From positions 1 through 27,758 of IMG/VR virus record IMGVR_UViG_3300030430_003209: a stretch of 27,758 nt of DNA, one strand, 5' to 3'. The notes under the pieces were generated by a model. That model made no database searches. It was not told the DNA's origin and was given only the letters and a program-made list of their open reading frames with translations. Positions 1 to 21,161 of this stretch are shown here, one piece after another. This DNA comes from a virus. Each line of letters opens with the position of its first letter. Within the stretch, counting starts at the first letter, position 1. The position numbers and the translations under genes are program-made.

Positions 1-3000
1 AAAATAGATGCTAACAAAAAGTTCTTAATGGATGATCTTAGAACTAGTGAAAAAGCTATAAATAAAATATTAGGTTTAGAACAAAAAGCATATAAAACAA
101 AACAAGAGTTTTTAGACGCATATAATGCTAAAACAGGTAAAAATCTCACGCTAGAAGACATGAAAGGTGTAGATGGTTTAATTGTAGATAACGAAATAAT
201 GATTAATGTTGAAACAGCTGCAGAAAACAATGCTGTTACAGTAGGATCACACGAATTATTGCACGCTATAGTTAAGTCATCAATAACTGGTGAGGTTAGA
301 AACGTAAAAGATGTTAATGGTAACACTGTTGAAACAGATTTAACTGAAGAAGGCGCTGTATTAATAAAAGATTTTTTAGGTACTTTAAACGCAAAAGAAA
401 AAGCAGTTGTACAAAAAAGAATAGATGATAACTACAGATATAATAGAGATAAAGATGGTAAAATAATATCTGAAAAAGCTTTTGAGCAATATGCTGAAGA
501 ATATTTAAACGCTTATGCTGATGCTGCTATAAAAAACGAACTTACTGATAGTATTTTAGTTAAAATAGGTAAGTTTTTATCTAAAATATTTAACAGGGGC
601 AATAGAGGTTATAAAAATTTAGAGTTTAAAACTGGAGAAGATGTAAAAGCATTTTTAAAAGCATACGTGTCAGACAGAAAAAAAGGTAAGTTTAGACAGC
701 AGTTTGTTGAAATGGCACAAGAAGGTGTTAAACAAGGACCTACTATAGAAAAAAAGTCTTTAACTGCTAATCAAAAAGCTAATATTAAAAAAGAAGTTGA
801 CAAACTTGGTCAAGTAGATAAAGATGGTAATAATCTTAGAGAGAAAGGTAAAGGTAACTTCTATTATCAAGCAGAGGCTGACGATATTATCAAAGAGCTG
901 AGAAAAAAACGTACAGATAAAGATCTTGGTTTAGAAAACGAAGCTTATTTAGACAATTTAATAGCTTCTAAATATAAAGTTAGACCAGTTCCAGAAGCAT
1001 TTGTTGATGATGTATTTAGCCAATTAATACCAGATATAAGAGGTTTTAAACCAGAAGAAAACGATAGCTTACTTGGTTATTTACAAGGTAGAATTCGTTT
1101 TAGAGCTGATGATGTTTATAAAAAAATATACGAGAAAAAAGGTCCAAAAACAACAGTTGATATTGGTAAAACAACAAAAGAAGGCGAAGTAAAAGTACAA
1201 GTTGCGGCAGAAGAAGATGTTAGAACTAAAGCTTTTGAAACAGAAGATATATCACCTCAAGCAGAAGCTAGAAGAAAAGCTCAAGCAGCAAAAAAGAAAG
1301 AAGATAAAAAATCAGAGCTTCGACAAGCAATAGGTATTAAAGACGGTAGCGATGCTTACAATGCTGTATTAGAAACAGCTCGTAAAGTATTAATTAGGGC
1401 TTATGATGCTGGTAAAACAGCTAGGCAAATACAAAGAGATTTAACCAGTGAAGCTTCTGCTTATTTGTTTAAACAGGTTAAAAACATGCTTGGTACTAAA
1501 AGAAATTATATTGGTAATATAACTAAGTTTAGAGTACCGCTTATTAACTCTATGTTTACCGCTGATTTAGTACAGCTAGAAAGAAATGTACCGGATAACG
1601 AAAGAGTTTTTACTAAATTTGTAGGTAAACTGACTAGTAAAAAAGAAGTGCAAGAAGCTGTTGATAACAATCAACTACCACCATCTGCTTTAAATACTAT
1701 AGACAAAGGACAATCTGTAAATTTATATCAAAAAATAAATCAAGTTGATTTTATTAAAGACAAAAAAGGTAATATTGATGAGTCAATAAAAGAAAATAAA
1801 ACAGCTCAAAAACAAGAAGATGATTTTATAGCGTTTTTTGATCAACCACTTATAAATCCTAAAACAGGTGCTAGATCAGGTCTTAGAGGTACTAGAAAAG
1901 ATCAATTAGCTAAGTACGTAGCAGCATCATTAAACTATGATGCTACAATGCAAGTAGCTCAAGAACCTGAAGTTGCTGAAAAAAGACAACAAATGGCTGA
2001 GTTAAGAGGTGAAACTATGGATGATACTGATATACAAGTTTTATCTGCTACTATAAATAGAGATCCTAATATTAAGTTTCATAAGTCAAGTAAAAAGCCT
2101 GTTGTAGATAAAAACTTAGCATATCATATAAAAGAAGTTTTAGGTTTAGATAATATAATAACAAAAGATGATTTTGAAGATTATTCTAAAGATTTAGTTT
2201 TTAAAGTACCTGGTCAAGGAGTTACTATAAATTCACCTATGTCTGATAAAGATAAAGCTTTATTTGCTAGAGAAGCTTTTAGAATTAGAAACGAGGGTGA
2301 ATATGAAAGAAATAATGATAGAGACCTTGATAATTTTCTTATAAATGGTATTGAAAAAGCTAGAAAAGACGGTAAAGTTAAAACTAGAGGTAAGATTTTA
2401 GAAGACGCTAGTAAAGATATTGTAAATAAAAATACTAAAGGCGAGCTAACAGATGGATATGGAGATATTTCTATAAGTTATCCTGGCGTTACATTTAATT
2501 TAGAGGTAAAAGGAGGTTTTGCTCAATGGGTTAGTAGAACTTTAAACTCTGTAGGAGATACGCTTAGTTTTACAACTAAAAATAACACTATAGATGAAAC
2601 TACTGGAAAACCATTTGAAGAAGCTATTATTAAAAAAGTTTTAGAAATTAGAAAAGAAATTAATAATTTTTTAGCTGAAAATAATATTGAAACTATTAAA
2701 GACTTTAATAAACCTTTACAGGTTGGATCACAGCAGTTTGAGGCGTTAAAAGCGTTTAAAAATAGTTTTCAGGTAGATACTACTGTTAGTTTAGATTACG
2801 TAATGCAAGATTATATTTTAAACAATTATTCTGGTAATAACGCGCAAAGTTTGTTACTAGTAGATTTTAACGCTTATTTAATGGAAACTGATAGTGAATC
2901 ATATAGAAACGCTAAAGTTGCTGTTGATATGTTTAATGAAGGTAAATCTGTAGAGCAACAAATAATACCTTTGCAACTTAACAAAGAAACAGATGCTATA

Positions 3001-6000
3001 ACTGTACATATTAGTTTTCAAGTTTCTGATGCTGGTCTTATAAATCATAGGTTTAGACCTAAGTTAGACGATAATCAATTTATAAAATCTAACGTTAATT
3101 TATTTAAAGACGCTAAAGTGGCTAAAGAATTTGGTCAAGCTTTAGATAAAGCTGCGGAACAAATAGCTTTAACAAAACAAAGTAAATCAGCTGCAAATAT
3201 TAGAAGTATTGAAAAATATAGCAAAACATCTAGAGGTATGTCTGCTTTTGATTTTGACGAAACATTAATTGACAAAGGTGATAATTTTATCATAGCTACT
3301 AGTCCTAGTGGTAAAGAAATAAAAATAACTAGCGGGCAATGGCCAATAAAAGGACCTAAGCTAACAGAGCAAGGGTATAAGTTTGATTTTACTGATTTTG
3401 TTAATGTTAGAGGCGGCGTTGAAGGACCTTTATTACAAAAGCTTAGAAACAGAATAAAAAAATACGGTGCTAAAAACAACTACATACTAACTGCTAGGCC
3501 ACCAGCAAGTGCTACCGCAATACATGGTTGGCTTAAAACAAAAGGTATAAACATACCGTTAGAAAACATTACTGGTTTAGGTAATAGTACTGGTGATGCA
3601 AAAGCACTTTGGATAGCTGGTAAATATGCAGAAGGTTATAACGATATATATTTTGTTGATGATGCTTTGCCTAACGTAAAAGCTGTAGCAGATGTAATAG
3701 ATCAGTTAGATATTAAAGGTAAATCTGTACAAGCTAAAATTAAGTTTAGTAAATCAGTAAATGATCAGTTTAATGATATAATAGAGCAAACTACTGGTGT
3801 TGAAACAGAAAAACGTTTTTCAGATGTACAAGCTAATCTTAGGAGTAGAAAAGGTAGGTATTTTAATTTAGTACCACCATCCGCTCAAGATTTTGCTGGT
3901 TTATTATATAACTTTTTAGGTAAAGGTAGAACAGGAGAACAACAGTTTAAGTTTTTTAAAAATACTTTAATAGATCCTTTTGCCAAAGGTATAAACGAAC
4001 TTAACACGGCTAGACAACGTACAATGGAAAAGTACATGGAACTAGTAAAAGGTTTGCCTAAAGTAAAAAAGCAGTTAACTACTGAGTTAAAAAAGTTTAA
4101 AGATATACCTAGTTATATAGAGAACTACAATGTTGATCAAGCGGTTAGAGTTTATTTATGGAATAAAAACGGTATTGAAGTGCCTGGTATGACAAAAAGA
4201 GACACTAAAGCTTTAACTGATTTTGTAAAAAATAATCCAGATATACAGTCTTTTGCTGATGCTGTTGGTACAATATCAAAAGAGCAACAAAGCTTTACTG
4301 AACCTGGTGAATATTGGTTAACAGAAAATATAAAATCAGATTTGTTTAGTGATGGTGCTTTAGGTGATGCAAGATCTAAGTATTTAGCAGAGTGGCAAGA
4401 AAACGTAGACCAAATGTTCAGTCCTGAAAACATGAACAAAATAAAAGTTATATACGGTACTAAATTTGTAGAAGCTTTACAAGATATATTATACCGTATG
4501 AAGACTGGTAGAAACAGACCTACTAACAAAAGCAGATTAACTAATGAGTGGTTAAACTGGGTAAATGGTTCTGTAGGTGCTATCATGTTCTTTAACATAC
4601 GTTCTGCTGTGTTACAAACTATATCTTCTATAAACTATATAAACTGGAGTGATAACAACCCACTTAACGCTGCGGCTGCGTTTGCAAACCAAAAGCAGTT
4701 TTGGAAAGACTTTAGCTTTTTATTTAACTCTGACTTTTTAAAACAAAGACGTGCTGGTAACCAAAGAGGTGTTAACGAGCAAGAGTTAAGTGAAGCTGTT
4801 ACTGGTAAAGGCGCTTTTGAACAAGCTAAAGCTGCAATAAGATATTTACTTAAAATAGGTTTTTTACCTACACAAATAGCTGATAGTTTTGCTATTGCTT
4901 CTGGTGGTTCTACGTTTTATAGAAATAGAATTAAAAAATATGTTAAAGATGGCGTGGCTCAAGAGCAAGCAGAAAAACAAGCTTTTTTAGATTTTCAAGA
5001 AATAACAGAGGTGTCACAGCAGTCTGCAAGACCTGATTTAATATCACAACAACAAGCAGATGCTCTTGGTAGATTAATTTTATCTTTTCAAAATACACCA
5101 ATGCAATACGGTCGTATTATGGATAAAGCATTTAGAGATATTATAAACCGTAGAGGTGATACTAAAACACATGTTTCTAAAATAGCTTATTATGGCGTAG
5201 CACAAGGTATATTGTTTACGGCTTTACAGTCTGCTTTATTTGCTTCTTGGGGTGATGAAGACGATGAATTAAGAGATAAAAAAACACAAAGGATGTTAAA
5301 CGGTATTGTTGACTCTTGGTTATCAACTTTTGGTTATGGTGGTAAAGGTGTCGCTACATTAAAAAACACGTTGTTAGAATATCAAAAACAAAGAGCTAAA
5401 GATCTTGATGAAGAGTTTATGACTAGACCTGATCACACTTACACTATATTAACAGCACTTAGTTTTTCACCACCTATTGGTTCTAAGCTTAGAAAAATAT
5501 ATTCATCTATACAAACTGAAAGATTTAATAGAGATATAATGCTAGAAAGAGGTTTTAAAGTTGACAACCCTGCTTTTAGTGCTATAGGTAATGTTATAGA
5601 AGCTGTTACTAATTTACCATTAGCTAGACTTTCTAATAAGCTTCGTAATTTAGAAAACGCTTTAGATAGTAGAAATGAAACTTGGCAAAGAGTTGCTTTA
5701 GCATTAGGTTGGAATACTTGGGATTTAGGTATAAAAGATCAAGATATAGAAGCTTTAGGTGAAAACATAAAAGAAAGAAAGAAGCAAGAGAAAAAAATGG
5801 AGAAAATAAAAAACAAGTATCCAGGTAAAACTAAAGAAGAAATAGATATAATTATAAAAGAAAAAGAAATATTTGATTTAAGTAAAAGAGAGCAAGAAAA
5901 TATAATAAAACAAAATAATTTAAATCCTAAAGATTATAAACTAGAAAAAGATAGAGTTGATATTATAATTAAATTACGTAATAAAGATGCGGAAAAAATA

Positions 6001-6210
6001 GACAAACAACTAACTAATATTAAAAATTACAAACCAAGCAAATCAGAACAAAGAGAATTAGATTTGTTTAAAATGAATAAAAAAGATCAAGTTGATTTAT
6101 TAATATACTATGGTTTATCTTCAAAACAAATAAAAAAGCTCAAATACGAAGAAGATAGAGTTAAAAAAATTATAGATCTTGAAAATAAAATAAAAAGTAA
6201 AAATCGTTAA
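1..6210 (+). CDS. Giant multidomain (polyvalent-type) phage protein, 5' end outside window
   Basis: The frame is open to the window edge; the first internal ATG is at 28, giving 2060 aa (numbering below from that Met). Visible modules: an HExxH zinc-metalloprotease motif (H75-E-L-L-H79) with a possible third ligand in an AEEYLNAYAD stretch near residue 155; a Lys/Glu-rich linker (about 250-440); a possible PD-(D/E)XK core (D813...E826-x-K828); and a HAD-type phosphatase domain with DFDET (D1075, D1077, T1079), ILTARPP near 1153-1159 and FVDD (D1211, D1212). Hydrophobic segments lie near 1516-1538 and 1719-1740, and a charged helical tail contains a repeated unit. Large proteins combining a metallopeptidase with other enzymatic domains are known in phages as polyvalent proteins, proposed to enter the cell with the DNA. 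Virion packaging and injection are inferred here. The HAD and HExxH calls are firm; the nuclease call is tentative. Confidence 0.85.
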   Translation, partial: KIDANKKFLMDDLRTSEKAINKILGLEQKAYKTKQEFLDAYNAKTGKNLTLEDMKGVDGLIVDNEIMINVETAAENNAVTVGSHELLHAIVKSSITGEVRNVKDVNGNTVETDLTEEGAVLIKDFLGTLNAKEKAVVQKRIDDNYRYNRDKDGKIISEKAFEQYAEEYLNAYADAAIKNELTDSILVKIGKFLSKIFNRGNRGYKNLEFKTGEDVKAFLKAYVSDRKKGKFRQQFVEMAQEGVKQGPTIEKKSLTANQKANIKKEVDKLGQVDKDGNNLREKGKGNFYYQAEADDIIKELRKKRTDKDLGLENEAYLDNLIASKYKVRPVPEAFVDDVFSQLIPDIRGFKPEENDSLLGYLQGRIRFRADDVYKKIYEKKGPKTTVDIGKTTKEGEVKVQVAAEEDVRTKAFETEDISPQAEARRKAQAAKKKEDKKSELRQAIGIKDGSDAYNAVLETARKVLIRAYDAGKTARQIQRDLTSEASAYLFKQVKNMLGTKRNYIGNITKFRVPLINSMFTADLVQLERNVPDNERVFTKFVGKLTSKKEVQEAVDNNQLPPSALNTIDKGQSVNLYQKINQVDFIKDKKGNIDESIKENKTAQKQEDDFIAFFDQPLINPKTGARSGLRGTRKDQLAKYVAASLNYDATMQVAQEPEVAEKRQQMAELRGETMDDTDIQVLSATINRDPNIKFHKSSKKPVVDKNLAYHIKEVLGLDNIITKDDFEDYSKDLVFKVPGQGVTINSPMSDKDKALFAREAFRIRNEGEYERNNDRDLDNFLINGIEKARKDGKVKTRGKILEDASKDIVNKNTKGELTDGYGDISISYPGVTFNLEVKGGFAQWVSRTLNSVGDTLSFTTKNNTIDETTGKPFEEAIIKKVLEIRKEINNFLAENNIETIKDFNKPLQVGSQQFEALKAFKNSFQVDTTVSLDYVMQDYILNNYSGNNAQSLLLVDFNAYLMETDSESYRNAKVAVDMFNEGKSVEQQIIPLQLNKETDAITVHISFQVSDAGLINHRFRPKLDDNQFIKSNVNLFKDAKVAKEFGQALDKAAEQIALTKQSKSAANIRSIEKYSKTSRGMSAFDFDETLIDKGDNFIIATSPSGKEIKITSGQWPIKGPKLTEQGYKFDFTDFVNVRGGVEGPLLQKLRNRIKKYGAKNNYILTARPPASATAIHGWLKTKGINIPLENITGLGNSTGDAKALWIAGKYAEGYNDIYFVDDALPNVKAVADVIDQLDIKGKSVQAKIKFSKSVNDQFNDIIEQTTGVETEKRFSDVQANLRSRKGRYFNLVPPSAQDFAGLLYNFLGKGRTGEQQFKFFKNTLIDPFAKGINELNTARQRTMEKYMELVKGLPKVKKQLTTELKKFKDIPSYIENYNVDQAVRVYLWNKNGIEVPGMTKRDTKALTDFVKNNPDIQSFADAVGTISKEQQSFTEPGEYWLTENIKSDLFSDGALGDARSKYLAEWQENVDQMFSPENMNKIKVIYGTKFVEALQDILYRMKTGRNRPTNKSRLTNEWLNWVNGSVGAIMFFNIRSAVLQTISSINYINWSDNNPLNAAAAFANQKQFWKDFSFLFNSDFLKQRRAGNQRGVNEQELSEAVTGKGAFEQAKAAIRYLLKIGFLPTQIADSFAIASGGSTFYRNRIKKYVKDGVAQEQAEKQAFLDFQEITEVSQQSARPDLISQQQADALGRLILSFQNTPMQYGRIMDKAFRDIINRRGDTKTHVSKIAYYGVAQGILFTALQSALFASWGDEDDELRDKKTQRMLNGIVDSWLSTFGYGGKGVATLKNTLLEYQKQRAKDLDEEFMTRPDHTYTILTALSFSPPIGSKLRKIYSSIQTERFNRDIMLERGFKVDNPAFSAIGNVIEAVTNLPLARLSNKLRNLENALDSRNETWQRVALALGWNTWDLGIKDQDIEALGENIKERKKQEKKMEKIKNKYPGKTKEEIDIIIKEKEIFDLSKREQENIIKQNNLNPKDYKLEKDRVDIIIKLRNKDAEKIDKQLTNIKNYKPSKSEQRELDLFKMNKKDQVDLLIYYGLSSKQIKKLKYEEDRVKKIIDLENKIKSKNR

Positions 6211-6885: not shown

Positions 6886-9030
6886 ATGAAAAAGATTTTA
6901 ATATTATTGCTGCTACCTATATTTAGTTTTACACAAAACTGTGTGCCAACGTTAGTAGCTACAGATACATGTATGTATGGTTATGCTAGAACATGGGTTG
7001 AGTGGCAGCCATTAGACAGCGGTTGTGTTATAGCTAACGTTCATAGAGGTACACCTTATAATACTTATAGTTGGGCATGGGGTAATCAAAGCCAAACTAA
7101 TTTTTCTTTTTATAATAACTATAGCCCGGGTGATCCTTTTGCTAGTTCAGAAGGCTTTTGGATGGTTTTAGAGATGGCTGACGGTACTTTTACTGATACA
7201 GTATATGCTAATGAATTTACATGTATTGAAGGTTGTATGGATCCGTCATATGATAATTATAATCCATTAGCTAATATACCTGATGTTTGCTTAGCGATAC
7301 CACCACCGCAAGATGATTGTTTAGACACTACAAAAACATCTATAACTATTGAGTTTACACCAGATACATATGCCGGTGAAACATCTATGCGTATATTAAA
7401 TCAAGATGATAGTGTTTTATATGATATACCACAAGGGTTTTTTGGTAGTATAGGTACTGGTAATATGTACACAGAAACAATATGTGTGCCAATAGGTGAT
7501 ACAGTTGAATTTATGATATATGATTCGTGGGGCGATGGTATATGTGGTAGTTGTTTTGGTGGTATTGATGGTTATGCTTTAATTACAGACGAGTGCGGTG
7601 ATACTATATATAGCTTAACGCCAGGTGATAATTTAAACTTTGGTCACGGCGATACATCAGATGTATTTGTAATGAAAGACTGCAGCTGGATACCTGTTGT
7701 TGGTTGTCCAAATCCTGGTTATTTAGAGTTTAATCCGTCTGCTGATATAATGAACCCAGCTTTATGTGTAACACCTAGAGTCGTAGGTTGTATGGATAGT
7801 ACTATGTTTGATTTTAATCCTACAGCTAACACACCACTTATGGAAGATACTTGTAGTTATGTACTAGAGCTTACAGATGGTGGTGGTGATGGTTGGTTAG
7901 GTGCTTACGTTGTAGTAAATCAATTAGGTAACTCGTATGGACCTTACACTAATATAAGTTCTTTTATTGAAACTATAAACTTAGAATTAAAATCAAATCA
8001 CCCAGTTACAATTAGAGCTTACTCACAAACAAGTTCTGATGCTACTATAGATCAAATAGGTTTTAGATTAATAAATCCAGAAGGTGTTGTTATAGCTTCA
8101 GGTGGTACAAATCCTTGGAGTGACAGAATAATGTTATTTCCAGATAAGTATATAGCTTTACCAAACTGTCCTACTATATGTACGCCTTATGTTTATGGTT
8201 GTATGGATGTTACAGCTTATAACTATGACATTACAGCAAATACTAGCGATGGTAGTTGTTATTATGCGCCTGGCTGTACAGATCCGCAGTATTTAGAGTA
8301 TTATACTCAAGGTTATGTAGCTGATTATAATAACGGTGATTGTAAAACAGAAGCTATATGGGGTTGTACTGATAGTACAGCATTTAATTATGACAGCTTA
8401 GCTAATTTAGATAATGGCGGTTGTACACCTGTAATACTTGGTTGTATGCAGCCTTTAGCGTTTAATTACGATGCTAATGCTAATACAGATGACGGAAGCT
8501 GCGTACCTTATATATATGGCTGTATAGACCCTACAATGTTTAACTACGATCCAACTTGTAATACTGATGATGGTAGTTGTATACCTTATAGTTACGGTTG
8601 TACAGACTCTACGGCTTTTAACTATGATCCACAAGCAAACGCTGACAATGGTTCTTGCATTGAAATAATACATGGCTGTATGGATGTTAACGCTTATAAT
8701 TATGATTTAGCTGCTAATATTAATGATACTACCGCTTGTTTATATGACGCAGGTTGTATTACTGGTGCAGGTATACCTTATTGGCTTAACGACGAGTGTT
8801 ATGCTTGGGTTATAGATGTAGATGCTTATTGTTGTGAAAACGAGTGGGACAACATATGTCAAGCTACTTATGATTATTGTCAAGGTACTTGGATAGGTCC
8901 AATACCGAAACGTATTGCTAATTTAGTAGCTGTTACAGATTTACTAGGTAGACCAGCTAAAATAACTAAAAACAAACTGTTAATCTTTATATACGATGAC
9001 GGTACAACAGAAAAGAAACTTGTAAAATGA
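6886..9030 (+). CDS. Secreted Cys-rich repeat protein with T9SS-type C-terminal sorting domain
   Basis: 714 aa. A signal peptide (MKKILILLLLPIFSFTQ) is followed by isolated GCMD/GCPN repeats near 115, 273 and 300, two beta-rich modules with FMIYDSWGDGIC- and LTDGGGDGWLG-type motifs, then about seven near-tandem repeats (about 438-618) of the form GCxDxxAFNYDxxANxDDGSC. A Cys-rich CCENEWDNICQ module comes next. The last ~39 residues (about 676-714) contain VTDLLGRP, an LLIFIYDDG strand and a basic end. This fits the type A sorting domain that directs proteins through the type IX system of Bacteroidetes to the cell surface. The repeats are common in marine Bacteroidetes secreted proteins. The gene probably came from a host; export to the infected cell surface is inferred, perhaps for adhesion or receptor masking. 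It overlaps the next gene by ATGA. Confidence 0.85.
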   Translation: MKKILILLLLPIFSFTQNCVPTLVATDTCMYGYARTWVEWQPLDSGCVIANVHRGTPYNTYSWAWGNQSQTNFSFYNNYSPGDPFASSEGFWMVLEMADGTFTDTVYANEFTCIEGCMDPSYDNYNPLANIPDVCLAIPPPQDDCLDTTKTSITIEFTPDTYAGETSMRILNQDDSVLYDIPQGFFGSIGTGNMYTETICVPIGDTVEFMIYDSWGDGICGSCFGGIDGYALITDECGDTIYSLTPGDNLNFGHGDTSDVFVMKDCSWIPVVGCPNPGYLEFNPSADIMNPALCVTPRVVGCMDSTMFDFNPTANTPLMEDTCSYVLELTDGGGDGWLGAYVVVNQLGNSYGPYTNISSFIETINLELKSNHPVTIRAYSQTSSDATIDQIGFRLINPEGVVIASGGTNPWSDRIMLFPDKYIALPNCPTICTPYVYGCMDVTAYNYDITANTSDGSCYYAPGCTDPQYLEYYTQGYVADYNNGDCKTEAIWGCTDSTAFNYDSLANLDNGGCTPVILGCMQPLAFNYDANANTDDGSCVPYIYGCIDPTMFNYDPTCNTDDGSCIPYSYGCTDSTAFNYDPQANADNGSCIEIIHGCMDVNAYNYDLAANINDTTACLYDAGCITGAGIPYWLNDECYAWVIDVDAYCCENEWDNICQATYDYCQGTWIGPIPKRIANLVAVTDLLGRPAKITKNKLLIFIYDDGTTEKKLVK

Positions 9031-15177: not shown

Positions 15178-17043
15178 TTATGTAATCTCACAAGAACCAC
15201 CAGCACAAGCTAATTCACCTGATAGATCTGTGTTGTCTGTATCTTCAACAATTTTTGTTAAATCAATATCTTGTAACGTTTTAGTCATTTCATCATACTT
15301 AGCTTTTGTAATATCTTCAAACGGTGCTTGAGTATAAGTACCACCATCATATGGTAATACAGATAAACCATTGTAAGTATTTCTGTTTTTCCACATCCAC
15401 TCGCCAGCAGGTTCCCAGTCTTTTTCTTTCAAACTTATTGTAGCAGACACGTTGTGTGTATTGCTACCTGTTTTGTGACCAGTAGCAACCCAGTCTGTAG
15501 CTACACGTTTAACACGTTCTAATAAATCAAAAGCAGACTCAGTTCTAATTATAGAACCTTTTGGCGCTGCTTGTGGTATTTCTATAACAGCAGTATCATG
15601 AGGCCTAAAATATTCATCTTGTATAAGCTCTGGATGGTTTTTAGATAAATAATTATATATAGGTTCGTTTTTGCCTACACGCATCCTACGAATATAATAT
15701 TTATTATGCCATGCATGTATACCAGATGAAGTTCCAAGTACAAGAGATGTTGTTCCTGCAGGTTTAACGCATGTCGTGCGTGCTGCTTGGTTTATCCCTA
15801 TTATTTTTGCTATTCTTCTGTTTTCCGCTTTTACTATATTTGCAGCTTCCTTCATATCCAGCTGGAGCACAGCGGCACTCCCTATTCCTGTCATTGACAC
15901 ACCTATAAGCGCGTCGCGTTCTGTTGTCTCTTGCCATATTTCTCTTAAATAATGAAACTCTGTATAACCTGCTTGTAATGTGCCTATAAATGCAGCAGCT
16001 TTAACTCTTAAATTAAAATCATCTTGATCAACTACATTTGATACGTTTACTTCGCATAAGTTACAAAACTGAAAAGGTCTTAGTGCTATTTCACAACACG
16101 GGTTAGTACCCCAGTCTTTGTCATTATTAAAATATATGCCAGGCTCACCAGAACCAGATAACTCTATACGCTTCCATAAATCTAAGAAAAACTCTTTAGT
16201 TATCTTATGTCTCATTAATACAGCAGAGTTATTAGCTCTACCACGTTGTGGGTTTATTTCCCACCAGTTACCTGATTTACAAGCTATCATTTCTTCATCA
16301 TATGCTGAAAACAAAGATATAAGAGCTGCTCTACGTATACCACCAGCAAGTACTGCGTCAGCTATGTGACATACAATATCATGTACTTCTATACTCTTAA
16401 GTTTATCACCATCTTGTTTAGCATCTAATATTCCTTTAATTTTTAATAAACACTCTTTTAGTGGTTGAGGCCCTGGAGCTTTACCGCCAGACGTAACGAG
16501 CCTTGCACCCTTTGGCCTAATATCCGAATAATCAAATTTTATCTTAGATGATCTCTTAGAGCCTAAATAAGACTTAATTAAAACCTTTATTGCGTCAGAC
16601 CAACCTTCAATACTGTCACCTATTACAAACCTACGTTTTCTAACACTATGAGGTTTAATTATTTCTGGTAGCTTCTTTATGTTATGGAGTTGAACAGAGT
16701 AACCCACGCCACAACCAGATAATAAAAGGAACATACACTCGCTAAAGCTATCAATGTGATCAATAGGTAAGTAAGCGCAGTTGTATAATCTATTCGGACT
16801 AATCTCAATTGGCTTACCACCAAACTGAAGACTACGCATAGATGGTAAAACTTTCTTTTTATATACGAAATCATAATTTGTTTCTATTTGTTCTTTTAAA
16901 CTAGGGTATTTTCTTATATGCATTTGCTTGTTACGATCAACTAATTCTTGCCAAGTTTCTCGCCTTTTTAACTCAGGTACATATTTAGCATATTTCATAT
17001 GTACTGTTATATCTGATAATATTTTATTGTTTATTTGTTTCAT
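15178..17043 (-). CDS. nrdJ: Class II (adenosylcobalamin-dependent) ribonucleotide reductase, monomeric type
   Basis: 621 aa. Reduces ribonucleotides to deoxyribonucleotides using coenzyme B12. Landmarks match the Lactobacillus leichmannii enzyme: C89 in RLYNCAYLP (C119 equivalent), NPC316-C-E318 (thiyl-radical Cys C408 and E410), and C327 in FCNLCEVN exactly 11 residues later (C419). The C-terminal redox pair C613-x4-C618 (CAGGSCEIT) matches C731/C736. At 621 aa it is shorter than the 739-aa bacterial enzyme, consistent with compact phage forms. The start at 17043 overlaps the endonuclease gene by 20 nt. It is the last gene of the minus-strand block. It supplies dNTPs without a second subunit and depends on host cobalamin and thioredoxin. 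Confidence 0.93.
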   Translation of the reverse strand: MKQINNKILSDITVHMKYAKYVPELKRRETWQELVDRNKQMHIRKYPSLKEQIETNYDFVYKKKVLPSMRSLQFGGKPIEISPNRLYNCAYLPIDHIDSFSECMFLLLSGCGVGYSVQLHNIKKLPEIIKPHSVRKRRFVIGDSIEGWSDAIKVLIKSYLGSKRSSKIKFDYSDIRPKGARLVTSGGKAPGPQPLKECLLKIKGILDAKQDGDKLKSIEVHDIVCHIADAVLAGGIRRAALISLFSAYDEEMIACKSGNWWEINPQRGRANNSAVLMRHKITKEFFLDLWKRIELSGSGEPGIYFNNDKDWGTNPCCEIALRPFQFCNLCEVNVSNVVDQDDFNLRVKAAAFIGTLQAGYTEFHYLREIWQETTERDALIGVSMTGIGSAAVLQLDMKEAANIVKAENRRIAKIIGINQAARTTCVKPAGTTSLVLGTSSGIHAWHNKYYIRRMRVGKNEPIYNYLSKNHPELIQDEYFRPHDTAVIEIPQAAPKGSIIRTESAFDLLERVKRVATDWVATGHKTGSNTHNVSATISLKEKDWEPAGEWMWKNRNTYNGLSVLPYDGGTYTQAPFEDITKAKYDEMTKTLQDIDLTKIVEDTDNTDLSGELACAGGSCEIT

Positions 17044-17482
17044 TTATTAATTCTATTACTTTATCACACTCTTTTTGATTTTGCGGTTTATATAAGGTTA
17101 CATGTGGTAAGTTAATATTTACATACTTTTTAAACATTTTCCATCGCATTGGAAAACTTTCGTTAGCTCTACCCTTGCACTCAATTATAAATTTTTTAGA
17201 TACAAAGTCTGGTGTATATTTAATAGGTAATATTTTTTTACAACCTCTATTAACTAAATCACCTTTGCCATTGCTTTGTCTTTCATAACTTTTGTTATTA
17301 AACATAAAGCCTTCTTGTACTGTGTATGTTTCACCTTCATACTTAGCTTTAATCTTAGCTTTTTTTAAAGCTTGATACATATAACGCTCTAAACCACTAG
17401 CGAACGTAATCCCGTCAAACTTAACTTTCTTAGCTCTAACAGGACCACGTTTTCTTTTATATTTACGAACCACTGTTCTCAA
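17024..17482 (-). CDS. T7 endonuclease I-like PD-(D/E)XK nuclease (Holliday-junction resolvase candidate)
   Basis: 152 aa. A basic N-terminus is followed by FDGITFASGLERYMYQAL (E32 as upstream acidic residue), YTPDF with D92, and FIIECKG with E101-x-K103. The pattern E...PD...ExK and the following SFPMRWKMFKKY and VTLYKPQNQKECD segments match phage endonuclease I / related DUF1064-like nucleases, which cut branched DNA and in T7 degrade host DNA and resolve replication intermediates. It overlaps both neighbours by 20 nt. An unspecific nuclease of the same fold is the alternative. Confidence 0.85.
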   Translation of the reverse strand: MRTVVRKYKRKRGPVRAKKVKFDGITFASGLERYMYQALKKAKIKAKYEGETYTVQEGFMFNNKSYERQSNGKGDLVNRGCKKILPIKYTPDFVSKKFIIECKGRANESFPMRWKMFKKYVNINLPHVTLYKPQNQKECDKVIELINETNKQ

Positions 17483-17759
17483 TTAATTCTTCACGAGCAG
17501 CTTGTATATACAATATAGCATCCATAAGCTCTTCTTGTATGTCGTTTAAATAACCTAATAAATCTTTATGTTTATTTTTACGCTCTTCGTGTAATGTTCT
17601 ACCGTACTTTTCAAAACCTACGTTAGATCTACTAACAAATTTATCAACTATATTTTTAACTACTGGATCGCGAAAGCCATATGATTCTCTTATAGCAATA
17701 CCATTTTTTGCATCCATTATTTCTCTTTCACTCATATTAATCTTTTTTAAATGTTCCAT
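17463..17759 (-). CDS. MazG-like all-alpha NTP pyrophosphatase-family protein
   Basis: 98 aa, predicted all helical. The second half has VGFEKYGRTLHEER, then DLLGYLNDIQEELMDAILYI, with the EExxDA motif used by MazG/dUTPase-type enzymes to bind Mg2+. Such enzymes hydrolyse (d)NTPs to (d)NMPs and pyrophosphate. It overlaps the preceding fusion gene by 23 nt and the nuclease gene by 20 nt. It is shorter than most MazG proteins but typical of phage versions. Substrate unknown; dCTP or dUTP would fit the neighbouring synthase-fold enzyme. Confidence 0.7.
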   Translation of the reverse strand: MEHLKKINMSEREIMDAKNGIAIRESYGFRDPVVKNIVDKFVSRSNVGFEKYGRTLHEERKNKHKDLLGYLNDIQEELMDAILYIQAAREELIENSGS

Positions 17760-18552
17760 TACTCATTTTACCTGTTCTATTTTTAATCTCTTCATATGCA
17801 AGATCAATACAGTCTTCAATACTAGTACCAGCAAGTTCTGCTAAATTAGTTAATACAACTACACAATCACCAATACCGTCCATTGTAGCTTGCTTATCAA
17901 CTTTAAGCACAGCTCTACATATTTCACCAGCTTCTTCCATAAGTTTTAATGTTTGTGTTTTTGTATCGCCACCGCTATATAAACCTCTTTCGTTAGCCCA
18001 TAATCTAATTTTATCAAACCTACTAACTCTATGATCTGACATAATACCACCAGTTCTAGTTACATGGTCGTTCATATGTAAATTAGCTAAAGTATCATGA
18101 CTGTCGTGATTATCAAACCACCTAGCAAAAGCTCTATTATATACATAACATCTTTCATTTGTGTATTGTGATTTTGCTACATTACTCATAATCCACTCTA
18201 TTGATTTTCTTGTTATTGTACACTCACCAAACGGTGTATCCCATGACATACCTATGTTATCCATAAGCCTGCCTTTTAATTTTCTGACTGGACAAGGAAA
18301 AGTCGTAGTCATTTCTGTTACATTAATTTTCATTTGATTACATTTTAATTTATTATAAGGTTTTTCATCTAACTTGTAGCCGTGCAGTTGTTGCAAATAT
18401 AACTCTTTTTTTGAAATATAATTAATATCATCAGACATTTCTAATATTTCGTATTCATCTTCTGTATATCCTTGTTGTTGCTCAACACGGTGTTTTATAT
18501 TGTTCGTTACACCTATTTTTACACCCGGTATATGGTATATACAATATGTCAT
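17737..18552 (-). CDS. GIY-YIG nuclease domain fused to MazG-like pyrophosphohydrolase
   Basis: 271 aa. The N-terminus (about 1-70) reads as a compact GIY-YIG domain: CIYHIPGVKIGVTNNIKHR, with IY and KIG in place of GIY and YIG, an Arg in the following helix, and a Glu in SKKELYLQQLHGYKLD. A middle part (about 75-170) beginning VTEMTTTFPCPVRKLKGRL has no recognised family. The C-terminus (about 176-271) is MazG-like: KLMEEAGEICRA plus DGIGDCVVVLTNLAEL supply EExxE and DxxxD metal ligands. It overlaps the synthase-like gene by ATGA. Similar GIY-YIG proteins occur in marine phages (from memory). Activity of the shortened nuclease motif is uncertain. Confidence 0.78.
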   Translation of the reverse strand: MTYCIYHIPGVKIGVTNNIKHRVEQQQGYTEDEYEILEMSDDINYISKKELYLQQLHGYKLDEKPYNKLKCNQMKINVTEMTTTFPCPVRKLKGRLMDNIGMSWDTPFGECTITRKSIEWIMSNVAKSQYTNERCYVYNRAFARWFDNHDSHDTLANLHMNDHVTRTGGIMSDHRVSRFDKIRLWANERGLYSGGDTKTQTLKLMEEAGEICRAVLKVDKQATMDGIGDCVVVLTNLAELAGTSIEDCIDLAYEEIKNRTGKMSNGTFKKD

Positions 18553-19205
18553 ATTTTATCATTATATAAATGCATATTATGTGCAAAATGATAATATACA
18601 CCAGGTTCAACATTTAACTCATGTGCAACTAAGCCTTGCAACATAGAGAAACAATACTGGTCATTACAAAAGCCATACCAAAGATCGTTACTACGCATTG
18701 TAACACACATATCTAATCTATCGTGTACAATTGTAAATTGTACAGCATAAGTGCAAGGCGTATCGTGTGCATAGCTAGTTATTTCTTTACCATCGTATAT
18801 TGATATAGCTGCTTGTCTAGTTTCTGACTTTTGCCTTAATGTTTCTATTACCATATCTAGTTGAGCATTACGTTGCCACTGCCAACCATAATTAGAGTTA
18901 ACATTACCTTTGTCGTCAGCCATACGTTTCCATATCTCAGGTACTTTACCGTATATTTTACCTAGCTTTTCAATATTATTATCACCAGACAAGTACCATT
19001 GCCACTCAGCTTCAGCATACTCTTGTTTCCAATTACGTTCTCTATTTATTATTTTATTGTCTAGTGGGTTTGTTATATAAAAACCTACGTTAAACAATGC
19101 TTTAGTATCTGCAAAGTCTACACCGTTTTGTATTATTTGGTCGTGCATATATTCATATGCTTCGTTTGCATTTCTAAAGACTTTATTATTTATTGTATTT
19201 ATCAT
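18549..19205 (-). CDS. Thymidylate-synthase-fold enzyme, dCMP hydroxymethylase-like
   Basis: 218 aa. Matches the ThyA fold: NSNYGWQWQR, catalytic C151 in DTPCT, R171-S-N-D174 phosphate-binding motif and H212-L-Y214. Distances agree exactly with E. coli thymidylate synthase (C146 to R166 is 20; to N177 is 31; to H207 is 61). The residue at the N177 position is D182. In T4 dCMP hydroxymethylase this Asn is Asp, which selects dCMP over dUMP. The enzyme is therefore more likely a deoxycytidylate hydroxymethylase (or methylase) than a true thymidylate synthase. The protein stops 4 residues after the HxY motif, lacking the usual C-terminal ~50 residues. It overlaps the upstream gene by 20 nt. Confidence 0.82.
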   Translation of the reverse strand: MINTINNKVFRNANEAYEYMHDQIIQNGVDFADTKALFNVGFYITNPLDNKIINRERNWKQEYAEAEWQWYLSGDNNIEKLGKIYGKVPEIWKRMADDKGNVNSNYGWQWQRNAQLDMVIETLRQKSETRQAAISIYDGKEITSYAHDTPCTYAVQFTIVHDRLDMCVTMRSNDLWYGFCNDQYCFSMLQGLVAHELNVEPGVYYHFAHNMHLYNDKI

Positions 19206-19455
19206 AATAGTATTTATAATATTCTAATTTTTTATTTAATACACTTCTACTGTCGTACCTTTTAGGATCAACATGTGTTTTATCTTTTATTTCTATATGT
19301 ATCTGCCAATGATTTAATTCATGCTTCCAATCAGGCGTAATACTTATTTTAATACCTGTATGCATACACCAGCAAATAATTTTCATCTCTTCTTCTGACC
19401 AAGATCTTCTAGGTGCTTTTTTACTTGGTATCTTTTGCCATTTAAAAAAACCCAT
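19186..19455 (-). CDS. Small basic hypothetical protein
   Basis: 89 aa. Starts MGFFKWQKIPSKKAPRRSWS, followed by EEEMKIICWCMHTGIKISI and a Trp/His-containing middle, then a Tyr/Lys-rich helical end (KKLEYYKYYYDKYNK). The start codon overlaps the primase-helicase stop by one base, and its 3' end overlaps the synthase-fold gene by 20 nt. No family recognised; position suggests a replication or nucleotide-metabolism accessory. Confidence 0.7.
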   Translation of the reverse strand: MGFFKWQKIPSKKAPRRSWSEEEMKIICWCMHTGIKISITPDWKHELNHWQIHIEIKDKTHVDPKRYDSRSVLNKKLEYYKYYYDKYNK

Positions 19456-21161
19456 TATTCCCAGGGCATAGCTTCAGCTTCAACTTCATCTATTAAATGC
19501 GGTACAAAGCTACCAGATCTAGGCTCCCAAGTAAAATGACTTTCAGCACCGTTTTCACCTAAGTTTTGAAACTTAACTTTAAGTACTTTAACTTTAGTTG
19601 TTTTAGCTTCATAGTCTCTATGTACTAACAAACCGTGATAACTAGCATCATACCACTCACCACCACCTTTAATATTATACATAGTAGGCTCTTCCATTTT
19701 ACCATCAGAACCTTTATACATTTTAGTTGGGTGAGCAACTATAAAAGTTAATACATCATACTTTTTACAAAAAGCTTCGATCTTAGCTAAATAATCCATT
19801 GTATAACGGTTTACGTCATCTGATACTGCGTTTGTGTCTCTGATCTTATTAAACGGATCGAGGACTAAACATTTAATACCCTTACGTTTTACAAGCTCAG
19901 CACCTTTACGTAACACAGCTTCAAGACTATATTTATCCATATCAATAAAGAAATAGTTATCATTAACATGATCAGTTACTTGCTGCCATTTATCATTACC
20001 AATATCATCTACACGAGGCATATCTTGCCAATGCTTACGCATTAACTTATGAGCATGAAGATATACCGGCTGATTTTCAGGCGAAGCATACGCAGTTTTC
20101 CAACCATAGTTATTATTATAACCAACAACCATTTGATCGACAAAGTCAGATTTACCGCTACTAGGCACACCAGTGACAGTGATAAATTGCCCAGTATACG
20201 TACTAAATATTTTATCGAAATTATTGAGGCCAATTTGGAAGCCAGGCTTGAAACCATTTTTAACAAAGTCTCTAAGTTCATCTTCTACATCTTTTAATGT
20301 TGATACGTTTTCTAGCGGTACAGGGCGAGCGTTGTGTATAGCACTTTGAAGTGCGTCAGCGCCATGTTCAAGTAAATAATCATTAGCATCTTTGTTACCG
20401 TTAAAATCTATAAGATAACATACTTCCGCACCAAGACGCCTAACTAATTCACGTTGTAACATTTGACCAGGTTCATCAGCATCAACAGCTAATATAATTC
20501 TAGTTTTGTCATCAAAATAATCAATACAATTATCTAAATAATCTAAGTTATTATTGTTTAACGTAGCACCGTTAGGTACTGATATTGCGTTTGGTATACC
20601 AGCTTCATGTAATGCTAACACATCCATTTCACCTTCAACAATAACACAAGTATCATACCCAACAATACTATTTATATTATAAAATACTTTTTCAGCACCT
20701 TTAAATAATTTAAAGTTTTTTCTACCGTCTCTGTATTTTATGTTAATCAATTGATCACCCATAAAATAATTAAACTGAATAGTATTTTCTTTTTTACCTG
20801 TCTGTGGCATAAACTCTTGACCTTGACCTACGCGTAAGTCTTTAAGTGTTTGTTTTGATATGCCTCTTGTTTTAAACCACTCTTCAACTTTTGTAGATGT
20901 TTTTTTAATTTTAACATCAGGCCTAACATAAACTCTTTCGCTAGCGCCTTTACGTTGATACGTATGTAGTTGAAATGTAGTATTACAATTGTGACAAGTA
21001 CCGAGACCACGTTCCCAATCATAACTAGCACATTGTGCTTTTTGATTTTTAGGTTTCCTAGTATGCGAACACAAGGGACAAGTCCCCTGTGCTGCATTTT
21101 CTTTTAGGCCATGTTGATTGAACTTATCAATAACAAATCCATTGATCTCTTGTTTACTCAT
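19455..21161 (-). CDS. T7 gp4/Twinkle-type primase-helicase
   Basis: 568 aa. An N-terminal zinc ribbon (C28-x2-C31 ... C56-x2-C59) precedes a TOPRIM primase core with VEGEMD (E176) and a VDADEPG motif, then a RecA-like DnaB-family helicase with Walker A G331-VPSSGKS338. LVLDPFNKI is the probable Walker B, with a VAHPTK segment beyond it. The acidic end (EVEAEAMPWE) resembles the tail through which T7 gp4 contacts polymerase and SSB. The domain order and length match bifunctional replicative primase-helicases. It follows the SSB-like gene with a one-base overlap. Confidence 0.94.
   Translation of the reverse strand: MSKQEINGFVIDKFNQHGLKENAAQGTCPLCSHTRKPKNQKAQCASYDWERGLGTCHNCNTTFQLHTYQRKGASERVYVRPDVKIKKTSTKVEEWFKTRGISKQTLKDLRVGQGQEFMPQTGKKENTIQFNYFMGDQLINIKYRDGRKNFKLFKGAEKVFYNINSIVGYDTCVIVEGEMDVLALHEAGIPNAISVPNGATLNNNNLDYLDNCIDYFDDKTRIILAVDADEPGQMLQRELVRRLGAEVCYLIDFNGNKDANDYLLEHGADALQSAIHNARPVPLENVSTLKDVEDELRDFVKNGFKPGFQIGLNNFDKIFSTYTGQFITVTGVPSSGKSDFVDQMVVGYNNNYGWKTAYASPENQPVYLHAHKLMRKHWQDMPRVDDIGNDKWQQVTDHVNDNYFFIDMDKYSLEAVLRKGAELVKRKGIKCLVLDPFNKIRDTNAVSDDVNRYTMDYLAKIEAFCKKYDVLTFIVAHPTKMYKGSDGKMEEPTMYNIKGGGEWYDASYHGLLVHRDYEAKTTKVKVLKVKFQNLGENGAESHFTWEPRSGSFVPHLIDEVEAEAMPWE

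Follow-up and report, generated by a model that had tools for sequence, protein, structure and literature searches.

A short thymidylate-synthase-fold protein encoded beside a MazG-like protein in a viral contig is a predicted dCMP 5-hydroxymethylase

Gene organisation of the locus

The window, by which we mean the whole stretch of DNA analysed here, comprises 27,758 nucleotides (positions 1 to 27,758) of the 39.5-kb virus record IMGVR_UViG_3300030430_003209. A block of genes runs from a primase-helicase through an 89-aa protein, a predicted dCMP 5-hydroxymethylase, a MazG-like fusion and a 98-aa protein to a DUF1064 nuclease and a class II ribonucleotide reductase (Table 1). The predicted hydroxymethylase gene has an ATG start, and its stop overlaps the start codon of the gene for the MazG-like fusion. 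The latter protein consists of a C-terminal MazG-like pyrophosphohydrolase domain with the motifs EEAGE ... DGIGD, an undefined middle part, and an N-terminus which is weakly GIY-YIG-like with sub-threshold matches to T5orf172 and MUG113; these parts are kept together in most relatives. Of 81 loci, 79 contain a MazG-like gene, without exception in the same orientation as the hydroxymethylase gene; in 74 it directly follows the latter. At locus L018 (22-4521), unrelated small open reading frames and no MazG-like gene follow the hydroxymethylase gene. Structural modeling of the fusion yielded a poor model (pTM 0.34), which gave weak matches to MazG and dCTPase structures, none of them below an E value of 0.001. 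Judged from a motif recognised by eye, the 98-aa protein is possibly a second small pyrophosphohydrolase-like protein. The ribonucleotide reductase of the block belongs to class II in 40 loci and to class I (NrdB and NrdA) in 28, and in no locus do both occur together.

Table 1. Position and assignment of features in the window.
Feature	Coordinates	Strand	Basis
Primase-helicase, replication module	19455..21161	-	Pfam, PHROG
89-aa protein, directly upstream of and conserved beside the hydroxymethylase gene	19186..19455	-	Locus comparison
Predicted dCMP 5-hydroxymethylase, 218 aa	18549..19205	-	Thymidylate-synthase superfamily; Pfam, PHROG and PDB matches, residues
MazG-like fusion, 271 aa	17737..18552	-	Pfam MazG 1.7e-5; PHROG MazG-like pyrophosphatase 1.9e-32
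98-aa protein	17463..17759	-	EELMDAILYI motif by eye; unnamed PHROGs only
DUF1064 / Holliday-junction-resolvase-like nuclease	17024..17482	-	Pfam, PHROG
Adenosylcobalamin-dependent (class II) ribonucleotide reductase	15178..17043	-	PHROG 3.1e-133; TIGR02505 2e-82, under the curated cut-off
714-aa protein	6886..9030		Repeats of the GCMDxxAFNYDxxANxDDGSC type; no confident Pfam match
2060-aa open reading frame	28..6210		FDFDETL HAD-like motif by eye; no confident Pfam match

Outside the window, at about 30537-32346 of the record (L084 2838-4647), a chaperonin pair is encoded (Cpn60, 3.2e-53; Cpn10, 2.6e-11). An ATP-dependent DNA ligase (PF01068, PF14743) was observed at locus L073 (3799-4665) and at 26 other loci; both families are among those associated with modified contigs in a sewage and coastal environmental survey (PMC8670742).

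Family membership and fold

The 218-aa protein is a thymidylate-synthase-fold protein encoded by a real gene. It is matched by Pfam Thymidylat_synt (E = 8.2e-26) and by the PHROG thymidylate synthase family (E = 1.4e-41), and its top sequence match in the PDB is T4 dCMP hydroxymethylase (E = 3.2e-17), scoring 66 bits compared to 59 for MilA and 39 for 9iqc/9iqu. With a profile of the family, the best match to a solved structure was MilA, followed by T4 gp42. Relatives are encoded in 382 stretches of viral contigs recovered in one scan, and dN was well under dS in every comparison run (e.g. 0.055 versus 0.476), demonstrating purifying selection; thus, the open reading frame does not occur by chance. 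It encodes the sole member of the thymidylate synthase family found in the virus record, and each of the records of 16 relatives likewise holds one. The short C-terminus is not due to a truncation or frameshift, since 55 of 71 distinct relatives likewise terminate four residues past the corresponding tyrosine and the others at most 14 residues past it.

The AlphaFold model of the protein (pLDDT 90, pTM 0.89) was compared with solved structures by VIA-align, resulting in Z scores of 23.8 for 9iqc, 23.3-23.6 for MilA and 21.0 for T4 gp42. As 9iqc and MilA are tied, the modeled fold does not distinguish between folate and FAD chemistry, and this choice falls to the residues. A maximum-likelihood tree of 19 members did not resolve the deep branches and was hence not used for placing the enzyme.

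Active-site residues

The residues considered are Glu67, Trp92, Ser104, Tyr106, Arg130, Asp148, Cys151, Thr152, Arg171, Ser172, Asp174, Asp182, His212 and Tyr214, among which Ser104, Tyr106, Asp148, Cys151, Thr152 and Asp182 are invariant in the alignment of 71 distinct relatives. The original prediction had been built on the spacing of four of them, which proved exact on recount: the distances Cys151-Arg171 (20), Cys151-Asp182 (31) and Cys151-His212 (61) equal those of Cys146-Arg166, Cys146-Asn177 and Cys146-His207 in E. coli ThyA, and the residues match column by column. Equally, the proposed cytosine-specific aspartate is borne out, as Asp182 aligns with E. coli Asn177 and T4 Asp179 and is an aspartate in 71 of 71 distinct relatives. 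In the environmental survey mentioned above, positions 177 and 147 best separated modified from unmodified contigs, and Asp at 177 marked the modified ones (PMC8670742); the 218-aa protein has Asp at the former position and Thr rather than His at the latter.

Several residues beyond this aspartate extend the argument. The hydroxymethylation signature of T4 gp42 consists of Ser94, Tyr96 and Asp145 (PMC6400193), and its equivalents are found here as Ser104, two residues before Tyr106, and Asp148, at position -3 from the catalytic Cys151. The folate-site residues Glu67, Trp92, Asp174 and Gly178 are kept, the first three corresponding to Glu60, the Trp of the W80 column and Asp171 of the T4-type enzymes, while T4 Arg177, which binds the glutamate tail of folate, is represented by Cys180. 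With Ser172 and Arg130, the protein has the residues typical of enzymes acting on deoxyribonucleotides. In place of the second phosphate-binding arginine (T4 Arg124), it has Gln131; the family varies between Gln, His and Arg at this position, and SPO1 gp29 also has Gln. Only four residues follow Tyr214 (4-14 across the family), in contrast to 55 in E. coli ThyA and 28 in T4 gp42, so that the thymidylate synthase tail is lacking.

The proposed use of dCMP thus gains from the Ser/Tyr/Asp signature, the Thr at position 147 and the missing C-terminal tail. Because both the folate-site and the signature residues are kept, in addition to the aspartate, we consider it probable that the protein acts on dCMP as a folate-dependent 5-hydroxymethylase similar to T4 gp42, which would feed hm-dCTP into the phage DNA.

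Alternative activities

The aspartate alone points to a dCMP-type enzyme and makes an incomplete argument beyond that, as the same residue occurs in FAD-dependent dCMP 5-hydroxylases (5-hydroxy-dCMP synthases), by which 5-hydroxycytosine, usually glycosylated, would be introduced into the DNA. Such a synthase of the genus Mosigvirus, to which RB69 belongs, is described in PMC13390438. Shewanella phage Thanatos probably also possesses one, and its protein Thanatos062 is closely related to PDB 9iqc/9iqu (E ~1e-107). These enzymes belong to the same superfamily and are similarly short, and the top structural match, 9iqc, is titled a riboflavin-dependent monooxygenase with dCMP and FAD. However, according to the alignment, RB69p048 and Thanatos062 lack folate residues kept in the 218-aa protein (Trp80 to Ile, Asp169 to Asn and Gly173 to Val), they have Glu instead of Asp at position -3, and 9iqc/9iqu rank below both T4 gp42 and MilA by sequence score. 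With Trp92, Asp174 and Gly178 in place, an FAD-type hydroxylase as represented by AfhB, RB69 and Thanatos was rejected and appears unlikely.

The original prediction had left the product as either 5-hydroxymethyl- or 5-methyl-dCMP. Exchange of Asn for Asp shifts thymidylate synthase towards dCMP with formation of 5-methyl-dCMP, as reported in PMC8670742 citing Graves, Hardy, Liu et al. 1992, and DNA containing 5-methylcytosine would result from a dCMP 5-methylase like that of the Xp12 lineage. AXL1 was used as a stand-in for the closely related 5mC phage Xp12, although the DNA modification of AXL1 itself is unproven (PMC9206674). AXL1 gp63 has Asn at position -3, Pro at 147 and a tail of 61 residues, and a DHFR gene lies two genes away. 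The 218-aa protein, in contrast, has Asp148 at -3, Thr and a tail of four residues, and a search for DHFR in the record and in the 16 relatives, several of which are fragmentary, gave no match. The residues and the tail led us to reject the methylase, which we regard as very improbable, and of the two products 5-hydroxymethyl-dCMP is favoured.

Just as improbable is an ordinary thymidylate synthase or hydroxymethylase acting on dUMP. Superfamily membership and the names of the Pfam and PHROG families would be in line with such an enzyme, but the N177 column is occupied by Asp, and never by Asn, in every relative checked, while the dUMP hydroxymethylase SPO1 gp29 retains Asn there; moreover, the protein stays far under the cut-offs of the NCBIfam thymidylate synthase equivalog models (70 versus 327 bits). 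A dUMP thymidylate synthase was rejected for the presence of Asp182 in place of Asn177. Least credible of all is a ribonucleotide (CMP) hydroxymethylase like MilA, the best profile match and tied best fold match, as the CMP preference of MilA rests on Ala176 and Lys133 (PMC5175136), both absent here in favour of Ser172 and Arg130, and as the gene resides in a replication and nucleotide module.

Proposed pathway and fate of the modified base

In the reaction proposed for a folate-dependent dCMP 5-hydroxymethylase, Cys151 would attack C6 of dCMP, with Asp182 binding the cytosine ring and donating a proton to it, and methylenetetrahydrofolate would deliver the one-carbon unit to C5. A water molecule, activated by Asp148 and held together with Ser104 and Tyr106, would then add to the exocyclic methylene to yield 5-hydroxymethyl-dCMP and tetrahydrofolate. 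That no DHFR was identified among the records searched would fit the release of tetrahydrofolate. Enzymes of the MazG and dCTPase types cleave nucleoside triphosphates by hydrolysis, and T4 gp56 serves as the model for the dCTPase role. By analogy, the 271-aa MazG-like protein is a candidate dCTPase that might hydrolyse dCTP to dCMP, thereby supplying the substrate and clearing a competitor, and the phage ribonucleotide reductase may feed the deoxynucleotide pool. Hydroxymethyl-dCMP would be phosphorylated, perhaps by host kinases, and the resulting hm-dCTP built into the phage DNA, which probably carries hydroxymethylated cytosine and might so be protected from host nucleases.

No close DNA relative was found among cultured phages. 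The closest cultured relative found at the protein level is gene 45 of Bacteroides phage BF503P1 (46% identity), about 4 kb downstream of a carbamoyltransferase gene (PF16861, 6.7e-34). In Lactobacillus phage ATCCB and Enterococcus phage VPE25, T4-type beta-glucosyltransferase genes adjoin the homologue or lie one gene from it. Such carbamoyl- and glucosyltransferases act on 5hmC (T4; PMC8670742). That the three nearest cultured relatives examined all carry transferases nearby speaks in favour of hydroxymethylcytosine being made in this branch. Near the carbamoyltransferase, BF503P1 also encodes another thymidylate-synthase-like protein (gene 40; L082 9113-9919), which appears degenerate: the Cys, the Asp at -3 and Asp177 are kept, and the Glu of the E58 column and the Trp of the W80 column are absent.

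Within the record holding the window and the 16 relatives, several of them fragments so that absence weighs little, we detected neither a T4-type beta-glucosyltransferase or carbamoyltransferase nor a dNMP kinase (PF21448, PF02223; DNMK, thymidylate kinase), and the remainder of a T4-like pathway is therefore not evident. A dCMP deaminase was likewise not found in these records, and DNA polymerase A was not found in the 16 relatives, some fragmentary, apart from one weak sub-threshold match. Where no phage kinase or transferase was found, the question arises whether plain 5hmC is the final base; in the lineage of the window, it may be, or it may be changed by an enzyme that we did not recognise.

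A gene cluster of the Kdo-sugar type occurs at eight loci (L039, L044-L046, L055, L068, L072 and L073), including two of the 16 relatives (G013 and G014), and we did not observe it in the record that contains the window. In these marine relatives with the hydroxymethylase-MazG-ribonucleotide reductase block, it lies on the same strand, 5-10 kb downstream and past the reductase. The cluster (e.g. L073 15028-20404) encodes JmjC/cupin, radical SAM-SPASM, short-chain dehydrogenase and cupin proteins as well as a cytidylyltransferase, a DAHP/Kdo8P-synthase-like enzyme, an unassigned protein and a weakly GT29-like glycosyltransferase. It might be speculated that 5-hydroxymethylcytosine in the DNA of these phages receives a Kdo- or sialic-acid-like sugar, for which we see a slight chance; to our knowledge, no such sugar has been described as a DNA modification on 5hmC, and a surface glycan is an equally good candidate for the target of the cluster.

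Host and significance

Besides Flavobacteriaceae and Saprospiraceae, the names of the bins whose MAG contigs contain relatives include Aliivibrio, Halieaceae, Clostridia and Verrucomicrobiales. Given the Flavobacteriaceae and Saprospiraceae bins and a closest cultured relative that infects Bacteroides, the host probably belongs to the Bacteroidota, and the MAG bins and the phage content, rather than sample metadata, point to a marine phage group. If the prediction is correct, hundreds of viral contigs (382 matches in one scan) encode a dCMP hydroxymethylase, beside a MazG-like protein in nearly all of the loci examined, suggesting that modified cytosine is common in this group. This might help to explain restriction resistance of phage DNA or a bias in enzyme-based library methods.

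Comparison with known systems

Like T4 gp42 (PDB 1b49, 6a9a), the 218-aa protein has the catalytic Cys and the equivalents of Glu60, the W80-column Trp, Ser94, Tyr96, Asp145, Thr149, Asp171, Asp179, His216 and Tyr218, and it lacks a thymidylate synthase tail. It differs in that the identity is approximately 36% over 129 aa, that the C-terminus is even shorter, that Arg124 and Arg177 are replaced by Gln and Cys, and that its gene neighbours encode MazG and ribonucleotide reductase and no beta-glucosyltransferase. BF503P1 gene 45 shares the active-site pattern, including the GFCNDQYCF motif, and a short C-terminus (17 residues past the Tyr), but retains both phosphate-binding arginines, and that phage possesses a second superfamily member and a carbamoyltransferase. 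MilA (PDB 5jnh) is similar in its fold, the Asp at -3, the Thr after the Cys and the Asp in the N177 column, and differs by Lys133/Ala176 in place of Arg130/Ser172 and by a large extra C-terminal region. The AfhB-type 5-hydroxy-dCMP synthases (PDB 9iqc, 9iqu; RB69, Thanatos) have the fold, the dCMP-type Asp and the short length in common with the 218-aa protein, whereas they have lost the folate-site residues that it keeps. AXL1 gp63 shares the dCMP-type Asp and a pyrophosphohydrolase gene next door; in contrast to the 218-aa protein, it carries Asn at -3, its tail is long, and genes for DHFR and dCMP deaminase lie nearby. We regard the 218-aa protein as a new member of a known enzyme type, of predicted activity, which is unusually short and consistently accompanied by a MazG partner.
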